NCBI GenBank assembly: GCA_016209865.1
Contig: JACQVL010000044.1
Location: 1-5,949, forward strand
Reading direction: 5' to 3'
Origin: Candidatus Latescibacterota bacterium
GTDB lineage: Bacteria; JAAXHH01; JACQVL01
Length of the DNA stretch: 5,949 nt
In this document: one piece after another, positions 1 to 5,949 of the stretch
Layout: every line of letters starts with the position of its first letter
Numbering within the stretch: position 1 is the first letter of the stretch
Made by a program: the position numbers and the translations under genes
The notes under the pieces: generated by a model
What the model saw: only the letters and a program-made list of their open reading frames with translations
What the model was told of the DNA's origin: nothing
Databases searched by the model: none

Positions 1-1
1 G

Positions 2-64
2 ATCAAGCGCGTAGCGGAGGAACCCCCGAAGCCGCCATCATCGCCACCGGAGGAGAGGAAATAA
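2..64 (+). CDS. possible 3' end of an unidentified upstream gene
   Basis: Frame 2 is open from the window edge to a TAA at 62-64 and would encode a 20-residue charged, proline-rich tail (IKRVAEEPPKPPSSPPEERK). The stop falls just before the fold-back repeat that begins near 69, which is where an intergenic region would be expected to start. No domain can be recognised from so short a piece and no function is proposed. Frame 1 is also open, to a TAG at 118-120, but it runs through the repeat and reads as low-complexity Gly/Ala/Glu, so it is less likely. The tail could also be non-coding. Confidence 0.35.
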   Translation: MKRVAEEPPKPPSSPPEERK

Positions 65-68
65 AAGC

Positions 69-168
69 GCAGAGGGGCGGAGGAGCAGAGGGGAATAAGA
101 GCAAAACCGCAGAGGGGTAGAAGCTCTTTCTCCTCTGCCCCCTTGCTCCTCTGATCCCCTGCCTTTTT
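69..168. repeat. fold-back element of 8-nt tandem units, ending in T5
   Basis: The left arm holds three contiguous 8-mers, CAGAGGGG (70-77), CGGAGGAG (78-85) and CAGAGGGG (86-93), with a further CAGAGGGG at 110-117. The right arm holds four contiguous 8-mers of complementary type: CTCCTCTG (130-137), CCCCCTTG (138-145), CTCCTCTG (146-153) and ATCCCCTG (154-161). The best local hairpin pairs GCAGAGGGG (109-117) with CTCCTCTGC (130-138), 9 bp including one G-T, around a 12-nt loop. A T5 run (164-168) follows the right arm, so it could act as a weak terminator for the upstream gene, though the T-run is about 25 nt past the best stem. The element fills most of the 65-183 gap. Confidence 0.8.
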
Positions 169-171
169 CAC

Positions 172-177
172 AAGGAG
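172..177 (+). promoter_or_regulatory. Shine-Dalgarno AAGGAG for the isomerase gene
   Basis: AAGGAG lies 6 nt upstream of the ATG at 184, immediately after the T5 run that ends the fold-back repeat. The good match and spacing fix the start of the sugar isomerase gene at 184. Confidence 0.8.
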
Positions 178-183
178 CCGTGC

Positions 184-1017
184 ATGTACGTCGGAGCATT
201 GACCGCGCCGTTCGGACGGGAATCGTTTGAATCGGTCGTGCAGTGGGCGGGCAGCGTGGGGTTGAGCGCGCTCGAAGTGGCAGCCGGGCCGGGCAGCCAA
301 CACATCGACCCTGCGAAGGTCACGAAAGAGGAAGCGAGTCGGATCAACGAGTTAGTAGCCCGGCACAACGTCAAGATCTCCAGTTTAGCCTACTACGCGA
401 ATCTCCTCGACCCGGAGCGGAAGCAGCAGGTCGTCGATCACCTGAAGCGCACCATCCAGGCGGCGCGGACGCTCGGCCTGGACGTAGTCTGTACGATGGC
501 CGGGATGCCGGTCGCCGGGAAGGACCGGAACCGGACGATCACGGAGGATTTCGCCCCGCTCTTCCGGCCGATCGCCAAATTCGCCGCCGACCACGGCATC
601 AAGCTCGCCTTCGAGAACTGGACGGCGACGAACATTCGGGGGCTTGACAACTGGGATCGTGTGTTCACGGAGGTCCCGGATGCGAACGTCGGCCTCAACT
701 ACGACCCGTCCCACCTGTACTGGCAGGACATCGACTACCTCTGGGCGATCGAGCATTTTGCCTCGCGCATCTTCCACGTCCACGCCAAAGACACGGAAGT
801 GAAACGGCATCGGGTCCGGTACGTGGGCAACCAGGACGGGGGCGGCTGGTGGCGGTACTGCATCCCGGGCTACGGCGGCATCCATTGGGGAGAACTGGTC
901 GCCCATCTGAAGTCGAACGGGTACGACGGCGTCCTCTCCATCGAACACGAGGATGGCCTGCTCGGCCGCGAAGAGGGCTTCATTAAGGGCATGAAGCACC
1001 TGCAGCAGTTTATATGA
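184..1017 (+). CDS. sugar phosphate isomerase/epimerase, xylose-isomerase-like TIM barrel
   Basis: This 277-residue protein fits the AP-endonuclease-2/xylose-isomerase-like TIM-barrel family (PF01261), which isomerises or epimerises sugars, inositol intermediates or hydroxypyruvate with a divalent metal. The visible barrel strands carry the expected ligands in order: E144 in AFENW, D174 and H177 in NYDPSH, H200 in FHVHAKD and E254 in SIEHED. The WRYCIPGYGGIHW segment (223-235) matches the loop before the last strands. Length is typical, there is no signal peptide, and a cytoplasmic enzyme is expected. The start is set by AAGGAG 6 nt upstream. The stop overlaps the next start (ATGA at 1014-1017). 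Substrate cannot be read from the sequence. The glycerate kinase two genes downstream makes a hydroxypyruvate or sugar-acid role possible, but the N-terminus does not look like classical Hyi. A dehydrogenase-partnered sugar catabolic role is an alternative. Confidence 0.88.
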   Translation: MYVGALTAPFGRESFESVVQWAGSVGLSALEVAAGPGSQHIDPAKVTKEEASRINELVARHNVKISSLAYYANLLDPERKQQVVDHLKRTIQAARTLGLDVVCTMAGMPVAGKDRNRTITEDFAPLFRPIAKFAADHGIKLAFENWTATNIRGLDNWDRVFTEVPDANVGLNYDPSHLYWQDIDYLWAIEHFASRIFHVHAKDTEVKRHRVRYVGNQDGGGWWRYCIPGYGGIHWGELVAHLKSNGYDGVLSIEHEDGLLGREEGFIKGMKHLQQFI

Positions 1018-1532
1018 AGCGTAGAACAAGCAGAGTGAGGTTGAGACTCAATCTCACTCTGCCCCTTCTCTCGTTTCTCACCCTTTCTCTCCTTCTCTCC
1101 AGTTGCGGGCTCAAGCCCAGCCCGCGATACCGTGCCCAACCGCTTCCTGAACGATCCCGCTTAGATGTCTCCCGGATGCGGAGTGCGATCGAATCCTTCT
1201 TAGGCACCCCCTACCGCTACGGGGGAGATAGCCTGGACGGGATCGATTGCTCCGGGCTTGTGATGGTGATCTACCGGAGCAGCGCCGGGGTCCAACTCCC
1301 CCACATCGCTGAACAGCTCATCCGTTTAGGGAAAAAAGTGAAGCTCAAAAAAATCCGGTTCGGCGACCTGGTCTTCTTTAACACGGGCAGCCAGGAGGGC
1401 GTCCACTCCGGCATTTATGTGGGCGACGGACAGTTCGCGCACGCCAGCCTGTCGCGCGGGGTGATCCTCTCCAGGCTGGATGAGACGTATTACCGGCAGC
1501 GCTTTCTTGAGGCACGACGGGTTGTGAAGTGA
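1014..1532 (+). CDS. NlpC/P60 family lipoprotein, probable peptidoglycan endopeptidase
   Basis: This 172-residue protein is probably a lipid-anchored cysteine peptidase that cuts D-Glu-meso-DAP type bonds in peptidoglycan stem peptides. Residues 1-31 form a lipoprotein signal: a basic n-region (KRRTSRVRLR), a Leu/Ser-rich core, and lipobox LSSC with lipidated C31. The +2 residue is Gly, not Asp, which in Gram-negatives favours outer-membrane sorting. The NlpC/P60 domain spans about 53-170, with catalytic C79 in GIDCSGLV, H131 in GVHSGIYVGDG and the third polar residue H143 in FAHAS. It resembles Spr/MepS-type enzymes in size. The start overlaps the isomerase stop (ATGA) and lacks a clear Shine-Dalgarno, so translation is probably coupled. 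The signal-peptide codons lie in a palindrome plus pyrimidine tract (1030-1100) that looks like intergenic repeat. Placement between two sugar-metabolism genes is unexplained. Confidence 0.9.
   Translation: MKRRTSRVRLRLNLTLPLLSFLTLSLLLSSCGLKPSPRYRAQPLPERSRLDVSRMRSAIESFLGTPYRYGGDSLDGIDCSGLVMVIYRSSAGVQLPHIAEQLIRLGKKVKLKKIRFGDLVFFNTGSQEGVHSGIYVGDGQFAHASLSRGVILSRLDETYYRQRFLEARRVVK
1030..1062. repeat. 33-nt near-perfect palindrome inside the lipoprotein signal-peptide codons
   Basis: GCAGAGTGAG (1030-1039) pairs exactly with CTCACTCTGC (1053-1062). Inside them TTGAG (1041-1045) pairs with CTCAA (1047-1051), separated by G1040/T1052, a G-U wobble in RNA. It starts 13 nt after the isomerase stop and is followed by a 39-nt tract (1062-1100) with only two purines. 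In place and composition it looks like an intergenic hairpin, yet it encodes residues 6-17 of the NlpC/P60 lipoprotein. Confidence 0.85.
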
Positions 1533-1668
1533 CAGGGGTCAGGGGTCAGGAAAGACAAGGAGTAAGCAAGACTCATTTCAGAGTCATTAGGATAGTTGTT
1601 TTGATAGGAGTGGATGCAGTGTCTTCTTTTACTGACCCCCGACCCCCGACCCCTGATCCCTGCTTTTT
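1532..1668. repeat. fold-back element of 7-nt tandem units (CAGGGGT/ACCCCTG), ending in T5
   Basis: The left arm starts at the NlpC/P60 stop codon: CAGGGGT (1533-1539), CAGGGGT (1540-1546), CAGG (1547-1550). The right arm at 1632-1662 has the complementary 7-nt period, CTGACCC, CCGACCC, CCGACCC, CTGATCC, CTG. Positions 1533-1547 and 1648-1662 are complementary at 14 of 15 positions, the exception being a G-T pair. The roughly 100-nt spacer is visibly more AT-rich than its surroundings and contains a small GACTC/GAGTC hairpin (1570-1574 with 1581-1585). A T5 run (1664-1668) follows, as in the element at 69-168. The right arm lies inside the glycerate kinase reading frame. Confidence 0.8.
1606..1610 (+). 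promoter_or_regulatory. Shine-Dalgarno AGGAG deciding the glycerate kinase start
   Basis: AGGAG lies 8 nt upstream of an in-frame GTG at 1619. The alternative GTG at 1529 has no Shine-Dalgarno and could be reached only by coupling through its GTGA overlap with the preceding stop. This site is the main reason for choosing 1619. Confidence 0.6.
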
Positions 1669-2980
1669 ACGCGACGCCGCACTCGACATCTTCCGCCATG
1701 CCCTGGCAGCGGTCGACCCGGCCGAGGCCGTCCATCGGGCGGTCGTGCGGGACATCGACCGGCTCCAGGTGCACGATCGCGCGTACGACCTCAGTCGCGG
1801 CGGCCGGGTCTTCGTCGTCGGGACGGGGAAAGCCGGGGCGCTCATGGCGCAGGCGGTCGAGGAAGTGATGGGAGACCGGCTGACCGGCGGGGTCGTCAAC
1901 GTCAAGGACGGTCACGTCGCCCCCGTCCGCCGGGTCAGCCTGAACGAGGCCGGGCATCCCCTCCCCGATGAGGCCGGAGTCCGGGGCGCGCGGGAGATCG
2001 TCCGGCTACTCTCCGGGCTGGAACCGGACGACCTGGTGTTCTGCGTGATCTCCGGGGGCGGTTCCGCCCTCCTCCCCCTGCCGGTTGACGGCATCACGCT
2101 CGCCGAGAAACAGACGGTCACCCAGTTGTTACTCGACTGCGGGGCGACGATCCACGAGATCAACGCGGTGCGGAAGCACATCTCGCGGGTCAAAGGGGGA
2201 CAGCTCGCCCGGCTGGCCGCTCCAGCGTCGGTCATCAGTCTGATCCTGTCGGACGTCATCGGCGACCGGCTCGACGTCATCGCCTCCGGGCCGACCGTCC
2301 CCGACACGAGCACGTTCGTCGACTGCCAGCGGATCATCGACCGGTACGACCTACGCGCTCGGCTGCCCGCCGCTGTCGCCGCCCATCTCGACGCCGGGCT
2401 TGCCGGACACATCCCGGAGACCCCCAAGCCGGGGGATCCGGTGTTCGACCGCGTCCAGAACGTGCTCGTCGCCACCAACCTGCTCGCCCTCCGGGCGGCC
2501 CAAGAACGGGCGGAAGCGTTAGGACTCCGTACGATCATCCTGTCGAGCGGTCTCGAAGGGGAGACGCGGGAGGTCGCCACAGTCTACAGCGCGATGGCGA
2601 AGGAGATTCGATCGTCGGGCAACCCCATCCCGCCCCCGGCGTGCGTGATTGCGGGGGGAGAGACGACGGTGACGATCCGGGGAACCGGGAAAGGCGGGCG
2701 CAACCAGGAGTTCGTCCTGGCTGCGGCGCGCGGGATTGCGGGATTGGACGGTGTGGTCGTCTTCAGCGCGGGGACGGACGGGACGGACGGGCCGACGGAT
2801 GCGGCGGGCGCGGTGGCGGACGGGACGACGATCCGGCGGGCGGCGGCGCACGGTCTGGACGCCGAACGGATGCTCGCCGCCAACGATTCATACCACTTCT
2901 TTCAGCCGTTAGGCGACCTGGTCATCACCGGGCCGACGCAGACGAACGTGATGGATTTACGGCTGCTGCTGGTAGGGTGA
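1619..2980 (+). CDS. gckA: glycerate 2-kinase, MOFRL/GckA family
   Basis: This enzyme phosphorylates D-glycerate with ATP to 2-phosphoglycerate, linking glyoxylate, hydroxypyruvate or serine-type metabolism to lower glycolysis. From GTG 1619 it is 453 residues, a usual family length. The N-terminal domain (about 17-250) has RVFVVGTGKAG with the conserved Lys at 61, the nucleotide loop VISGGGSALL (133-142), the NAVRKHISRVKGG segment (172-184) and LSDVIGDRLDVIASGPT (200-216). The C-terminal MOFRL domain (about 331-441) has AGGETTVTIRGTGKGGRNQE, SAGTDGTDGPTDAAG and a terminal TNVMDL. The family core begins near LRDAALDIFRHALAAVDP (17-34). Residues 5-15, Thr/Asp/Pro-rich, are encoded by the heptamer repeat and look like an added tail. 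An in-frame GTG at 1529 would add 30 residues but lacks a ribosome-binding site. No usable start exists between the repeat and the conserved helix. The symbol is by family; activity is not proven. Confidence 0.9.
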   Translation: MSSFTDPRPPTPDPCFLRDAALDIFRHALAAVDPAEAVHRAVVRDIDRLQVHDRAYDLSRGGRVFVVGTGKAGALMAQAVEEVMGDRLTGGVVNVKDGHVAPVRRVSLNEAGHPLPDEAGVRGAREIVRLLSGLEPDDLVFCVISGGGSALLPLPVDGITLAEKQTVTQLLLDCGATIHEINAVRKHISRVKGGQLARLAAPASVISLILSDVIGDRLDVIASGPTVPDTSTFVDCQRIIDRYDLRARLPAAVAAHLDAGLAGHIPETPKPGDPVFDRVQNVLVATNLLALRAAQERAEALGLRTIILSSGLEGETREVATVYSAMAKEIRSSGNPIPPPACVIAGGETTVTIRGTGKGGRNQEFVLAAARGIAGLDGVVVFSAGTDGTDGPTDAAGAVADGTTIRRAAAHGLDAERMLAANDSYHFFQPLGDLVITGPTQTNVMDLRLLLVG

Positions 2981-3029
2981 GGTTCGTTCCCCAGGGCGAT
3001 CACAAGGATCGCCCCTACAATGACGAACC
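2981..3029. repeat. 49-bp nested inverted repeat (MITE-like intergenic hairpin)
   Basis: The element abuts the glycerate kinase stop codon. Terminal arms GGTTCGT (2981-2987) and ACGAACC (3023-3029) are exact inverted repeats. Nested inside is a perfect 8-bp stem, GGGCGATC (2994-3001) and GATCGCCC (3007-3014), around an ACAAG loop. No T-run follows on either strand, so it is not a textbook intrinsic terminator, although it sits where the two convergent operons must end. I recall similar GGGCGAYCACAAGGRTCGCCC words as dispersed intergenic repeats in other bacteria, but this is from memory only. Confidence 0.8.
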
Positions 3030-3045
3030 ACCAATTCGTGCTCTC

Positions 3046-3066
3046 GTCACGTGTCACTCGTCACTG
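3046..3066. repeat. three 7-nt tandem units (GTCACNN)
   Basis: GTCACGT, GTCACTC and GTCACTG are contiguous and end 3 nt before the stop codon of the minus-strand Trm112-like gene. The last 14 nt (3053-3066) recur exactly at 3260-3273, on the other side of that gene. Confidence 0.75.
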
Positions 3067-3069
3067 CTC

Positions 3070-3237
3070 TTAAAACTTCTCCGCCTCGTCGATGAGCATG
3101 ATCGGGATATCGTCCTTGATCGAGTACTTCAGACGGCATTTGTGACAGATGAGCTTCTCGTTCCCCCGGTCGTACTCCAGGTCCCCCTTGCACTGCGGAC
3201 ACGCCAGGATCTCCAATAATTGCTGATCGAGCGCCAT
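3070..3237 (-). CDS. Trm112/UPF0434-like small zinc-ribbon protein
   Basis: This 55-residue protein matches the bacterial Trm112p-like (UPF0434, YcaR-type) family. The hallmark opening LLEILACPQCKGDL (7-20) is followed by a second cysteine pair, C31-H-K-C34, so C13, C16, C31 and C34 could bind one zinc. The DDIPIMLIDEA ending (42-52) is also typical. In eukaryotes and archaea Trm112 activates methyltransferases of tRNA, rRNA and release factors; the bacterial role is less clear and no partner is visible here. The start at 3237 is preferred over an upstream ATG at 3264 because GGAGGAG (3247-3241 on this strand) sits at the right distance and the family normally starts just before this point. 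It follows accA by 23 nt and probably shares its transcript. A 14-nt direct repeat flanks it. Confidence 0.9.
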   Translation of the reverse strand: MALDQQLLEILACPQCKGDLEYDRGNEKLICHKCRLKYSIKDDIPIMLIDEAEKF

Positions 3238-3240
3238 ATT

Positions 3241-3247
3241 CTCCTCC
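3241..3247 (-). promoter_or_regulatory. Shine-Dalgarno GGAGGAG for the Trm112-like gene
   Basis: On the minus strand GGAGGAG is followed by AAT and then the ATG at 3237. It is the strongest ribosome-binding site in the window. It also contains the codons of a longer reading frame (MEEN), which is why the longer start at 3264 is rejected. Confidence 0.75.
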
Positions 3248-3259
3248 ATCTGTTTACCC

Positions 3260-3273
3260 GTCACTCGTCACTG
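3260..3273. repeat. two 7-nt units GTCACTC-GTCACTG overlapping the accA stop
   Basis: This 14-nt sequence is identical to 3053-3066. Read on the minus strand it supplies the last codons of AccA (Ser-Asp-Glu) and its TGA stop at 3263-3261. With the copy at 3046-3066 it brackets the Trm112-like gene in the same orientation. Confidence 0.75.
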
Positions 3274-4247
3274 ATTTCCTCAAACACCCCCATCTGGCCG
3301 AACTTCTCCAGTCGAGCGTCGATTAACGCCTGAGGCGGAATATCTCTCAGCTCATTGAAGACCTCGACCACACAGGCTTTCAAGGCGTTCGCCGACGCCT
3401 GATAGTCCCGGTGCGCCCCGCCCACCGGCTCCGGGATGATCCGGTCGATGACGCCAAGCCTCAGGAGGTCGGGCGCGATCAACTGCAACGCTTCCGCGCA
3501 GTCCGGCGTCCGGGCCGCGGCCTTATCTTTTTCCTTCCACAGGATCGTCGAACACCGCTCCGGGTTGATCACCGAATACCACGCATTCTCCATCATCAAT
3601 ATCCGGTCGCCGACGCCGATCCCCAACGCTCCCCCGCTGGCCCCTTCCCCGATGATGACGACGACGATCGGAACGCGCAGCCGCCCCATCTCGAAGATAT
3701 TCCGCGCGATCGCCTCAGCCTGACCGCGTTCTTCCGCCCCCTGGCCGGGGTAGGCGCCCGGGGTGTCGATCAGGGAAAGGACGGGCATCCGGAATTTCTC
3801 GGCGAGCTTCATCATCCTGAGCGCCTTCCGGTAGCCGTCAGGGTTGGCCATTCCCCAGTTCCGCATCAGGTTTTCCTTCGTGTTGCGTCCCTTCTGGTGG
3901 CCGATGACCATCAGCGGTTCCCCGTCAAGCCTGGCCAGCCCGGCGACGACTGCTTTATCGTCTTTGAACGCCCGATCCCCGCTCAGCTCGAAAAACTCAC
4001 TCATCATCAACTCGATATAATCTAACGTGTGCGGTCGTTGTAGATGCCGGGCGATCTGCACCCGCTGCCAGCGCGTCAGGTTGGAATAGATCTCCCGGCG
4101 CAGACGCTCCGCTTTCCGCTCCAGCCGCCGGATCTCTTCGGTGAGCGCCTCGAAGTTCTCCGTGACCGCAAAATTCCGCATATCCTCGATCTGCCGTTCG
4201 AGTTCGACCAGCGGCTTCTCAAAATCGAGCACCGTGCCGTTCATCAT
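3261..4247 (-). CDS. accA: acetyl-CoA carboxylase carboxyltransferase subunit alpha
   Basis: AccA pairs with AccD to transfer carboxyl from carboxybiotin on AccB to acetyl-CoA, making malonyl-CoA for fatty acid synthesis in the cytoplasm. The 328-residue product is close to the E. coli length (about 319). Landmarks in order: N-terminal [14 protein letters not shown] helix (7-20) and coiled segment, [13 protein letters not shown] (114-126), [19 protein letters not shown] (158-176), the oxyanion-forming [15 protein letters not shown] (200-214), SVINPE (225-230) and the [12 protein letters not shown] motif (270-281). The start at 4247 has CGGAG 5 nt upstream; a second ATG at 4244 is also possible. 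Only 2 nt separate it from the upstream glycosyltransferase stop, so the two are probably translationally coupled. No accD is present here. The last residues SDE and the stop come from a GTCACTC-type heptamer repeat. Confidence 0.97.
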
Positions 4248-4249
4248 CT

Positions 4250-5941
4250 TTACTCCGATGGATTCCGCAACACCCGGCGGATGAGCTTCCGGCAGTGGGC
4301 CAGCGGGTCGGCGCCGACATCGACGAGCGAAATCAGGTCGAGATGGTTCCCCGATGCCGGGAGTCGGGGGAGTCCGGGCTGAGCGACGAGCTTCAGGCCC
4401 ACCCCCAGACGGGTGCAGGATGAGATCAGTTGCAGGATCTCCTGGTACGAGACTGACGAGGTCGCTACGATGACTTCATCGACCCGATGGGCGTCTAGCG
4501 TCTCGGAGAGCAGGCCGTTCCCGTTCAGCACCGGCACCCCTTGAATCCTCGTCCCGATCCTGGCCGGGTCCGTGTCGAGGAGTCCGATGACGTCATAGCC
4601 TGGCCGGGTCTCCCGTTGAAGGCGGGCCAGGATCCCCACGCCCGCGTCGTCCGTGCCGACGATGAGCGCGCGCCGGCGGGCGCCAACGAGCAGGGAGACG
4701 ACCTGCCGCCATCCGGCCACGACCCCGACGTTGATCCCCCACGACAGGAGGACGATCGCGCGGGAGAAGGCGTATTCACGGGTAAAATACGTCAGCGCCG
4801 CGATCACCACGAACCCGACCGACAGGGCAAGCGCGGCGGACAGGGCGGAGTATCGCCGATGCCCGTACAGGTCGTACAGGTACAGGCACCCCATCCAGAC
4901 GGCGCTGTACGTCCCGTGGACGACCACGTAGGGGGTGAGGGTGTCGGCGGTCAGGGGCGTCAGCCGTCCGACGCGGATGAGGGTGGCGACGAGCAACGCC
5001 GCGTTGATGGCGGTGAGGTCGATGAGCGGGAGGGCGGCGCGCCGGAGCGCGTTCGCCGCGATCGAGCACCCGGCTTTCAGGACAATCCCGGTCATCACCA
5101 GTCCGCCGACGAGGACGGTCAGCAGCCGTGTTCCCTGGGTCGGACGATGCTTCCGGGCGAAGATGTACATCGCCCGGTAGAAGTCGATCGACGGCCAGCG
5201 CCCGCTCCGTTTCGTGCTCTCCCCTTTGTAATGGATGATGCGGGTCGCCGGGACGTAACACACCCGCCAGCCAGACTGACGCATCCGGTACAGCCAGTCC
5301 AGGTCCTCTCCGTACATGAAGAACGATTCATCCAGCAACCCTACCCGGGCGATCGTGTCCCGGCGGACGACCATGAACGACCCGGAGACCGCGTCCACAT
5401 CCTGCACGGCGTCCGGGTCGAGGTAGGTGAGGTTGTACGCGCCCATCATCCGATGCTTCGGGAACACCCGGCTGAGGCCGGTCAGCTTGAAGAACGCGGA
5501 GAGGGGCGTCGGGATGCTCCGCCGGCACGCTAACTGCAGCGTCCCGTCCGGGTTGAGCACCTTGCATCCGGCCGCGCCGACGTCCGGATGGGTATCCATG
5601 AACTCCACCATCGTCCGGAGGGTGTCTTCCTGGATGAGCACGTCCGGGTTGACCAGACAGGCATACCGTCCCCGGTAGACGGCGAGCGCCTGGTTATTGG
5701 CCGCCGCGAACCCCCGGTTCTCCGGGTTCTGGATGAGCCGGACGGCCGGGTAGTGAGCGCGGACCATCTCGACGCTCCCGTCCGTCGAGGCGTTATCGAC
5801 GACGATGACCTCGGACGTGAGGCCGTCCATGGCGCGTTCGATCGACCGGAGCAGCGCCTCTAAAAAATCCCGGACGTTGTAGCTCACGATGATCACCGAG
5901 AGGTCAACGGATGGCGTGTTAACGGTCAACCCCATACTCAT
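4250..5941 (-). CDS. GT2 glycosyltransferase fused to the N-terminal half of a polyprenyl glycosylphosphotransferase
   Basis: This 563-residue membrane protein has two parts. Residues 13-265 are a family-2 glycosyltransferase of the rhamnosyltransferase/WbbL type, with SVIIVSYN (15-22), [10 protein letters not shown] (47-56), [12 protein letters not shown] (72-83), the NPD metal/nucleotide site (98-100), SGSFMVVRR (186-194), [12 protein letters not shown] (205-216) and HYKGES (237-242). Hydrophobic segments lie at about 272-290, 308-323, 337-357, 367-386 and 392-411. Residues 424-545 resemble the CoA_binding_3 Rossmann domain (PF13727) of WbaP-type enzymes: [38 protein letters not shown]. The catalytic sugar-phosphate transferase domain that normally follows is absent; the protein ends about 18 residues after this domain. 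It probably adds a sugar to a lipid-linked or surface glycan at the inner membrane. ATG 5935 (third residue) has the better ribosome-binding site (AGGGG, 7 nt upstream) and may be the true start. It heads the accA operon. Confidence 0.88.
4253..4257 (-). promoter_or_regulatory. Shine-Dalgarno CGGAG for accA inside the upstream gene
   Basis: CGGAG on the minus strand spans the last sense codons (Ser-Glu) of the glycosyltransferase fusion gene and ends 5 nt before the accA ATG at 4247. This embedding supports coupled expression of the two genes. Confidence 0.7.
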
Positions 5942-5949
5942 ACCCCTGC
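5942..5949. repeat. possible single heptamer unit at the window edge
   Basis: The last bases contain ACCCCTG (5942-5948), the same 7-nt word as in the fold-back element at 1532-1668 (CAGGGGT on the minus strand). Here it provides the AGGGG that serves as ribosome-binding site for the glycosyltransferase fusion, best spaced for the ATG at 5935. A single unit at a window edge could be coincidence. Confidence 0.3.

Follow-up and report, generated by a model that had tools for sequence, protein, structure and literature searches.

We analysed a 5,949-nt stretch of DNA from a Candidatus Latescibacterota bacterium (contig JACQVL010000044.1, assembly GCA_016209865.1, positions 1 to 5,949; hereafter the window), in which a near-perfect palindrome of 33 nt codes for part of the signal peptide of an NlpC/P60 lipoprotein. 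The explanation that we favor, and consider reasonably probable, is that the palindrome is a junction hairpin absorbed by an older lipoprotein signal, in its N-terminal half. Hairpins of the small junction type to which it would belong occupy many of the intergenic gaps of this genome. The palindrome lies within the 47 nt that separate the stop codon of an upstream TIM-barrel gene from the orthologue-alignable part of the NlpC gene, and would have been taken into the 5′ coding frame, with translation of NlpC now starting at an ATGA overlap (position 1014) or in the palindrome itself (GTG 1035 or TTG 1041). Translation of the purine-rich 5′ arm would then give an arginine-rich n-region (SRVRLR), and that of the pyrimidine-rich 3′ arm would give the beginning of the hydrophobic core (LNLTLP). 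We infer that the hairpin was intergenic in origin and that it took the place of, or rewrote, the N-terminal half of the signal of a protein that would already have been a lipoprotein, in a region where sequence constraint is loose.

A palindrome inside a lipoprotein signal

The palindrome (1030-1062, no strand assigned) reads GCAGAGTGAGGTTGAG-A-CTCAATCTCACTCTGC, with 16-nt arms that pair at 15 of 16 positions around a 1-nt loop; the lone mismatched position would pair as G-U in RNA. It is contained in codons 1029-1064, residues 6-17 of the open reading frame (ORF) at 1014-1532, where the signal-region residues are SRVRLRLNLTLP. The pyrimidine tract (1062-1100, plus strand) has 39 nt with two purines, reads CCCCTTCTCTCGTTTCTCACCCTTTCTCTCCTTCTCTCC, and codes for the hydrophobic core PLLSFLTLSLLLS up to the lipobox. 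A first-pass annotation of the window had described both coding relationships, and we confirm them at these positions. It had also pointed to CTCTGCCCC as common to the tract and an inverted repeat at 69-168, and this sharing is real, but nine letters in C/T-rich DNA carry little evidential weight. Around the palindrome is an extended imperfect RNA stem (~1016-1077, plus strand) that runs from just past the start codon to about codon 22 (z = -3.9). An intrinsic terminator was considered and rejected, because the stem is followed by CCCCTTCTCTC without a T-run.

The palindrome exceeds chance. Among synonymous recodings of residues 1-31, its hairpin score was reached by none of 3,000 drawn from the codon usage of the window and by 1 of 3,000 drawn from uniform usage; none of 3,000 codon-order shuffles reached it. 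Long hairpins are also frequent in this genome, with 21 that have arms of at least 14 nt in the 573-kb genome sample used for our hairpin and codon surveys, against 1 in a block-shuffled control.

The gene encodes a Spr/MepS-like NlpC/P60 lipoprotein of 172 amino acids (1014-1532, plus strand; Pfam NLPC_P60, E = 1e-27). The match to PF00877 covers the whole profile (1-105) at 96.6 bits against a gathering score of 23, which places the protein among the NlpC/P60 peptidases, and the catalytic-type residues C79, H131, and H143 are invariant in the alignment with its orthologue. The protein scored 113.6 bits against the Spr/MepS equivalog (NCBIfam NF008096, PRK10838), under the 186-bit cut-off, and is thus not a member of that narrower group. 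The signal (MKRRTSRVRLRLNLTLPLLSFLTLSLLLSSC) comprises residues 1-30 and has, at the level of motif, the features of a lipoprotein: a positive n-region, a hydrophobic core, and LSSC at residues 28-31, with C31 as the lipid cysteine under the rule [LVI]-[AST]-[GAS]-C. Judged from these motifs, the protein is probably exported and lipidated today. Reading the sequence between the palindrome and the lipid cysteine, we found no in-frame ATG, GTG, or TTG, so that translation of the lipoprotein must start at ATG 1014, in the ATGA (1014-1017, plus strand) where the TIM-barrel stop overlaps the NlpC start, or at one of the alternative in-frame codons inside the palindrome, GTG 1035 and TTG 1041. If it is a lipoprotein, at least the 3′ arm therefore codes for part of it.

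The 5′ end of the gene is also atypical in codon usage. Codon adaptation is 0.26 over residues 2-17, 0.42 over residues 18-30, and 0.64 over residues 32-172, compared to a genome median of 0.74 in 31-codon windows, and codons 1-31 of the gene rank in the bottom 0.3% of the 4,169 windows surveyed. Of the nine lipobox-like ORFs of the sample, the NlpC gene ranks last in codon adaptation and first in pyrimidine content of the core. These atypical codons fit DNA that became coding recently and was intergenic in origin.

The export signal in the orthologue

Only one orthologue was found among the 16 genomes that we covered for the phylum, in G013 (L032, CAJXCW010000236.1), at 48-51% identity. In a tree of 40 homologues it is sister to the window protein (support 97/80), and both loci have the NlpC gene followed by a glycerate kinase gene. 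The orthologue opens with MIPACHGRTHLPVVRLFYILLAGLWLSGC, a lipobox signal of 29 residues versus 31 in the window protein, and it contains no hairpin (best score 5 versus 13 in the window). The residues from the lipid cysteine onward are nearly the same in the two proteins (CGLKPSPRY and CGMKSAPRY), giving a conserved CG[LM]K[PS][SA]PRY (CGxKxxPRY) in the pair. Because the orthologue has a lipobox signal and CGxKxxPRY at the lipid cysteine without the palindrome, the export signal of NlpC most likely predates the palindrome. The first-pass annotation had named, as the picture that would tell against it, relatives with the same signal residues in different codons and no palindrome; most of this is what we found, as the signal of the relative lacks the palindrome, although its residues differ too.

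The gene upstream of NlpC differs between the two loci. In the window it encodes a xylose-isomerase-like TIM-barrel protein (184-1017, plus strand), which matches Pfam AP_endonuc_2 to profile position 248 of 249 and has a normal C-terminus, whereas the relative has a TatA-like gene at this place (L032 3560-3937, from reading its translation). The junction is therefore new or reshuffled. The region upstream of NlpC has been rearranged in one of the two lineages, that of the window or that of L032.

Several points weigh against a captured junction hairpin. The lone orthologue in the phylum is only about 50% identical, so that no empty site can be demonstrated, and the ancestral state is read from this one comparison and from distant homologues. 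The exact palindrome is single copy, and its membership of a repeat class therefore follows from a shared 10-mer motif only; BLAST of the palindrome region against the genome returned no convincing second copy (E = 2). Unusual codons are, moreover, frequent in signal peptides in general.

Alternative explanations

The first-pass annotation had proposed that an NlpC/P60 protein of the cytoplasm, or one with another target, may have become an exported lipoprotein through insertion of an intergenic element. Palindrome and pyrimidine tract do jointly code for most of the signal, and repeats that pass from purines to pyrimidines yield signal-like peptides above the level of shuffled sequence (see below), but the proposal is largely refuted by the orthologue, which keeps the lipid cysteine and CGxKxxPRY behind a lipobox signal of its own with no palindrome. 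Most homologues also have an N-terminus of this kind: a hydrophobic segment is present there in 83 of 107, and 46 of the 107 satisfy a strict lipobox rule that is a heuristic of our own making and not SignalP. Spr/MepS of Escherichia coli, the best-known family member, is itself a lipoprotein. We regard creation of the export signal by the element as very improbable. What stands of the earlier interpretation is the coding hairpin, its non-native-looking codons, and its likeness in motif to intergenic repeats.

Selection on an mRNA hairpin, which would tune processing of the transcript or translational coupling where the TIM-barrel and NlpC genes meet while the signal peptide tolerates the resulting codons, would account for the strong fold (z = -3.9) with an outer stem that begins at the ATG, for the ATGA overlap, and for pairing that is near-perfect though the other repeats of the genome are degenerate. 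The hairpin is nevertheless not conserved in the orthologue, whose upstream gene differs too, there are no close relatives in which compensatory changes could be seen, and the missing T-run excludes a standard terminator; we consider this explanation unlikely. We think it equally unlikely that the palindrome is an accident of rare AGA/AGG and CTC codons in an ordinary signal peptide. The palindrome is single copy, and an h-region calls for the pyrimidine-rich codons of Leu, Ser, and Phe, yet the recodings described above reached its score in 0 of 3,000 (window usage) and 1 of 3,000 (uniform usage) trials, a rarity that still allows for one case among thousands of genes, and long-arm hairpins are in excess in the genome sample (21 versus 1). 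Capture of a junction hairpin by an existing signal remains the explanation that we favor.

A broader form of the first-pass idea is that such repeats are a source of signal peptides in general. Its premise, hydrophobicity of a C/T strand whatever the frame, is wrong here: of the three frames of the tract only the coding one is hydrophobic, at a mean hydropathy of 1.76 versus 0.61 and 0.37, and random C/T tracts reach a mean of at least 1.5 in 25% of cases and at least 2 in 7%. The weaker claim found slight support, as positive-then-hydrophobic, signal-like peptides occurred in 4 of 108 repeat frames compared to 0.87 ± 0.88 in shuffles. This excess is only a lead, because the 18 elements behind it have units in common and are not independent, and because shuffling destroys the polarity of the arms. 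We speculate, and rather doubt, that repeats with purine-rich 5′ and pyrimidine-rich 3′ halves tend to encode Arg-rich then Leu-rich peptides, arranged as in a signal peptide or N-in membrane anchor, that repeat-littered genomes could thereby renew or swap export signals with unusual ease, and that the window gene and possibly others are products of this tendency. Such a bias, if general among genomes, would offer a simple origin for new export signals.

Comparison with known systems

The closest precedent is found in the enterobacterial ERIC/YPAL repeat units (RU-1 and RU-2). In YPO1552, residues 1-30 of the predicted signal peptide come from RU-2, and the signal peptides of its homologues from other genera bear no relation to this repeat (Delihas 2007, PMC2759123). 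The two cases are alike in that a repeat is part of a signal peptide and the signals of homologues are unrelated. They differ in that RU-2 is a defined, multicopy repeat of ~168 bp while the window palindrome is 33 nt and single copy, and in that the window protein combines a lipoprotein signal with an enzyme domain. The Rickettsia palindromic elements, as far as they are described in PMC10969869 (citing Ogata et al. 2000), are multicopy families of ~150 bp inserted within genes; on that description they are the second known case of palindromic DNA read in frame in a protein, resemble the window palindrome in this, and differ from it in that the window has a single short hairpin, placed at the N-terminus. 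E. coli Spr/MepS, a murein DD-endopeptidase/LD-carboxypeptidase, resembles the window protein as a small lipoprotein of the NlpC/P60 family in which a single catalytic domain follows the signal; the match to Spr/MepS spans the catalytic domain only and not the signal peptide, and its score is below the cut-off. The window palindrome is a fresh example of a kind already reported, a hairpin or repeat in the N-terminal part of a signal (Delihas 2007, PMC2759123). Taken alone, the NlpC gene is a curiosity with a published precedent. It offers a clean small case of the loose constraint on the N-terminal part of signal peptides, where a junction hairpin takes over and lipobox and enzyme are unchanged.

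Inverted repeats in the genome

The intergenic inverted repeats of this genome fall into classes built from short degenerate units: GTGACGAG arrays, CAGAGGGG, GGGGTCA, GAGRTT hexamers, GGGCGA...TCGCCCCTAC, and CCCCTTTCTCTCCC. Both arms of the palindrome contain the 10-mer TGAGRTTGAG, which recurs in at least 7 other intergenic inverted repeats (e.g., L214, L220, L227, L234, and L235) and is present in plain coding sequence as well, and the outer GCAGAG/CTCTGC of the palindrome matches a CAGAGGGG-class unit. The palindrome as a whole does not recur: at up to 3 mismatches it has one locus in the genome and none in the 15 other genomes covered for the phylum, where the first-pass annotation had expected the same palindrome at other loci. 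Compared to intragenic small palindromic repeats of the Rickettsia palindromic element or ERIC type, it lies in frame within a gene as they do, and it lacks their defining trait of being multicopy, with the TGAGRTTGAG motif alone recurring. The repeat at 69-168 (no strand assigned) is an intergenic inverted repeat of the CAGAGGGG class, and positions 55-185 have 39 BLAST matches in the genome at E ≤ 1, including the self match. At G000 loci L116, L129, L214, L220, L227, and L235, GAGRTT inverted repeats are nested between GTGACGAG/CTCGTCAC arrays, mostly on both sides; these nested repeats have many copies and are mostly intergenic.

The glycerate kinase junction repeats the pattern of the NlpC junction, with an N-terminus made of a repeat. 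A GGGGTCA-class inverted repeat lies between NlpC and the kinase (1533-1665, no strand assigned) and supplies the start region of the glycerate 2-kinase-like protein (DUF4147/MOFRL; 1529-2980, plus strand), which begins at GTG 1529 or, more likely, at GTG 1619 inside the repeat, a codon with AGGAG upstream. There is no ATG, GTG, or TTG between this repeat and the conserved domain of the kinase, and the start, likely GTG 1619, therefore lies within the element. Codon adaptation is 0.28 in the first 45 codons of the ORF, which correspond to the repeat, versus 0.76 in the remainder, and the orthologous kinase opens with its own ATG, at MNPESLSTLRTDARHIF. In a survey of N-termini, several further ORFs crossed repeats, and in those inspected (e.g., L188, L208, and L214) an ATG farther downstream is the better fit; most repeat-crossing ORFs are therefore probably over-extended ORFs and not captures, the window glycerate kinase excepted. 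More intergenic units lie farther along the window at 2984-3066 and 3249-3273, where a CCCAGGGCGATCACAAGGATCGCCCCTAC palindrome and GTCACTCGTCACTG units are found by convergent genes.
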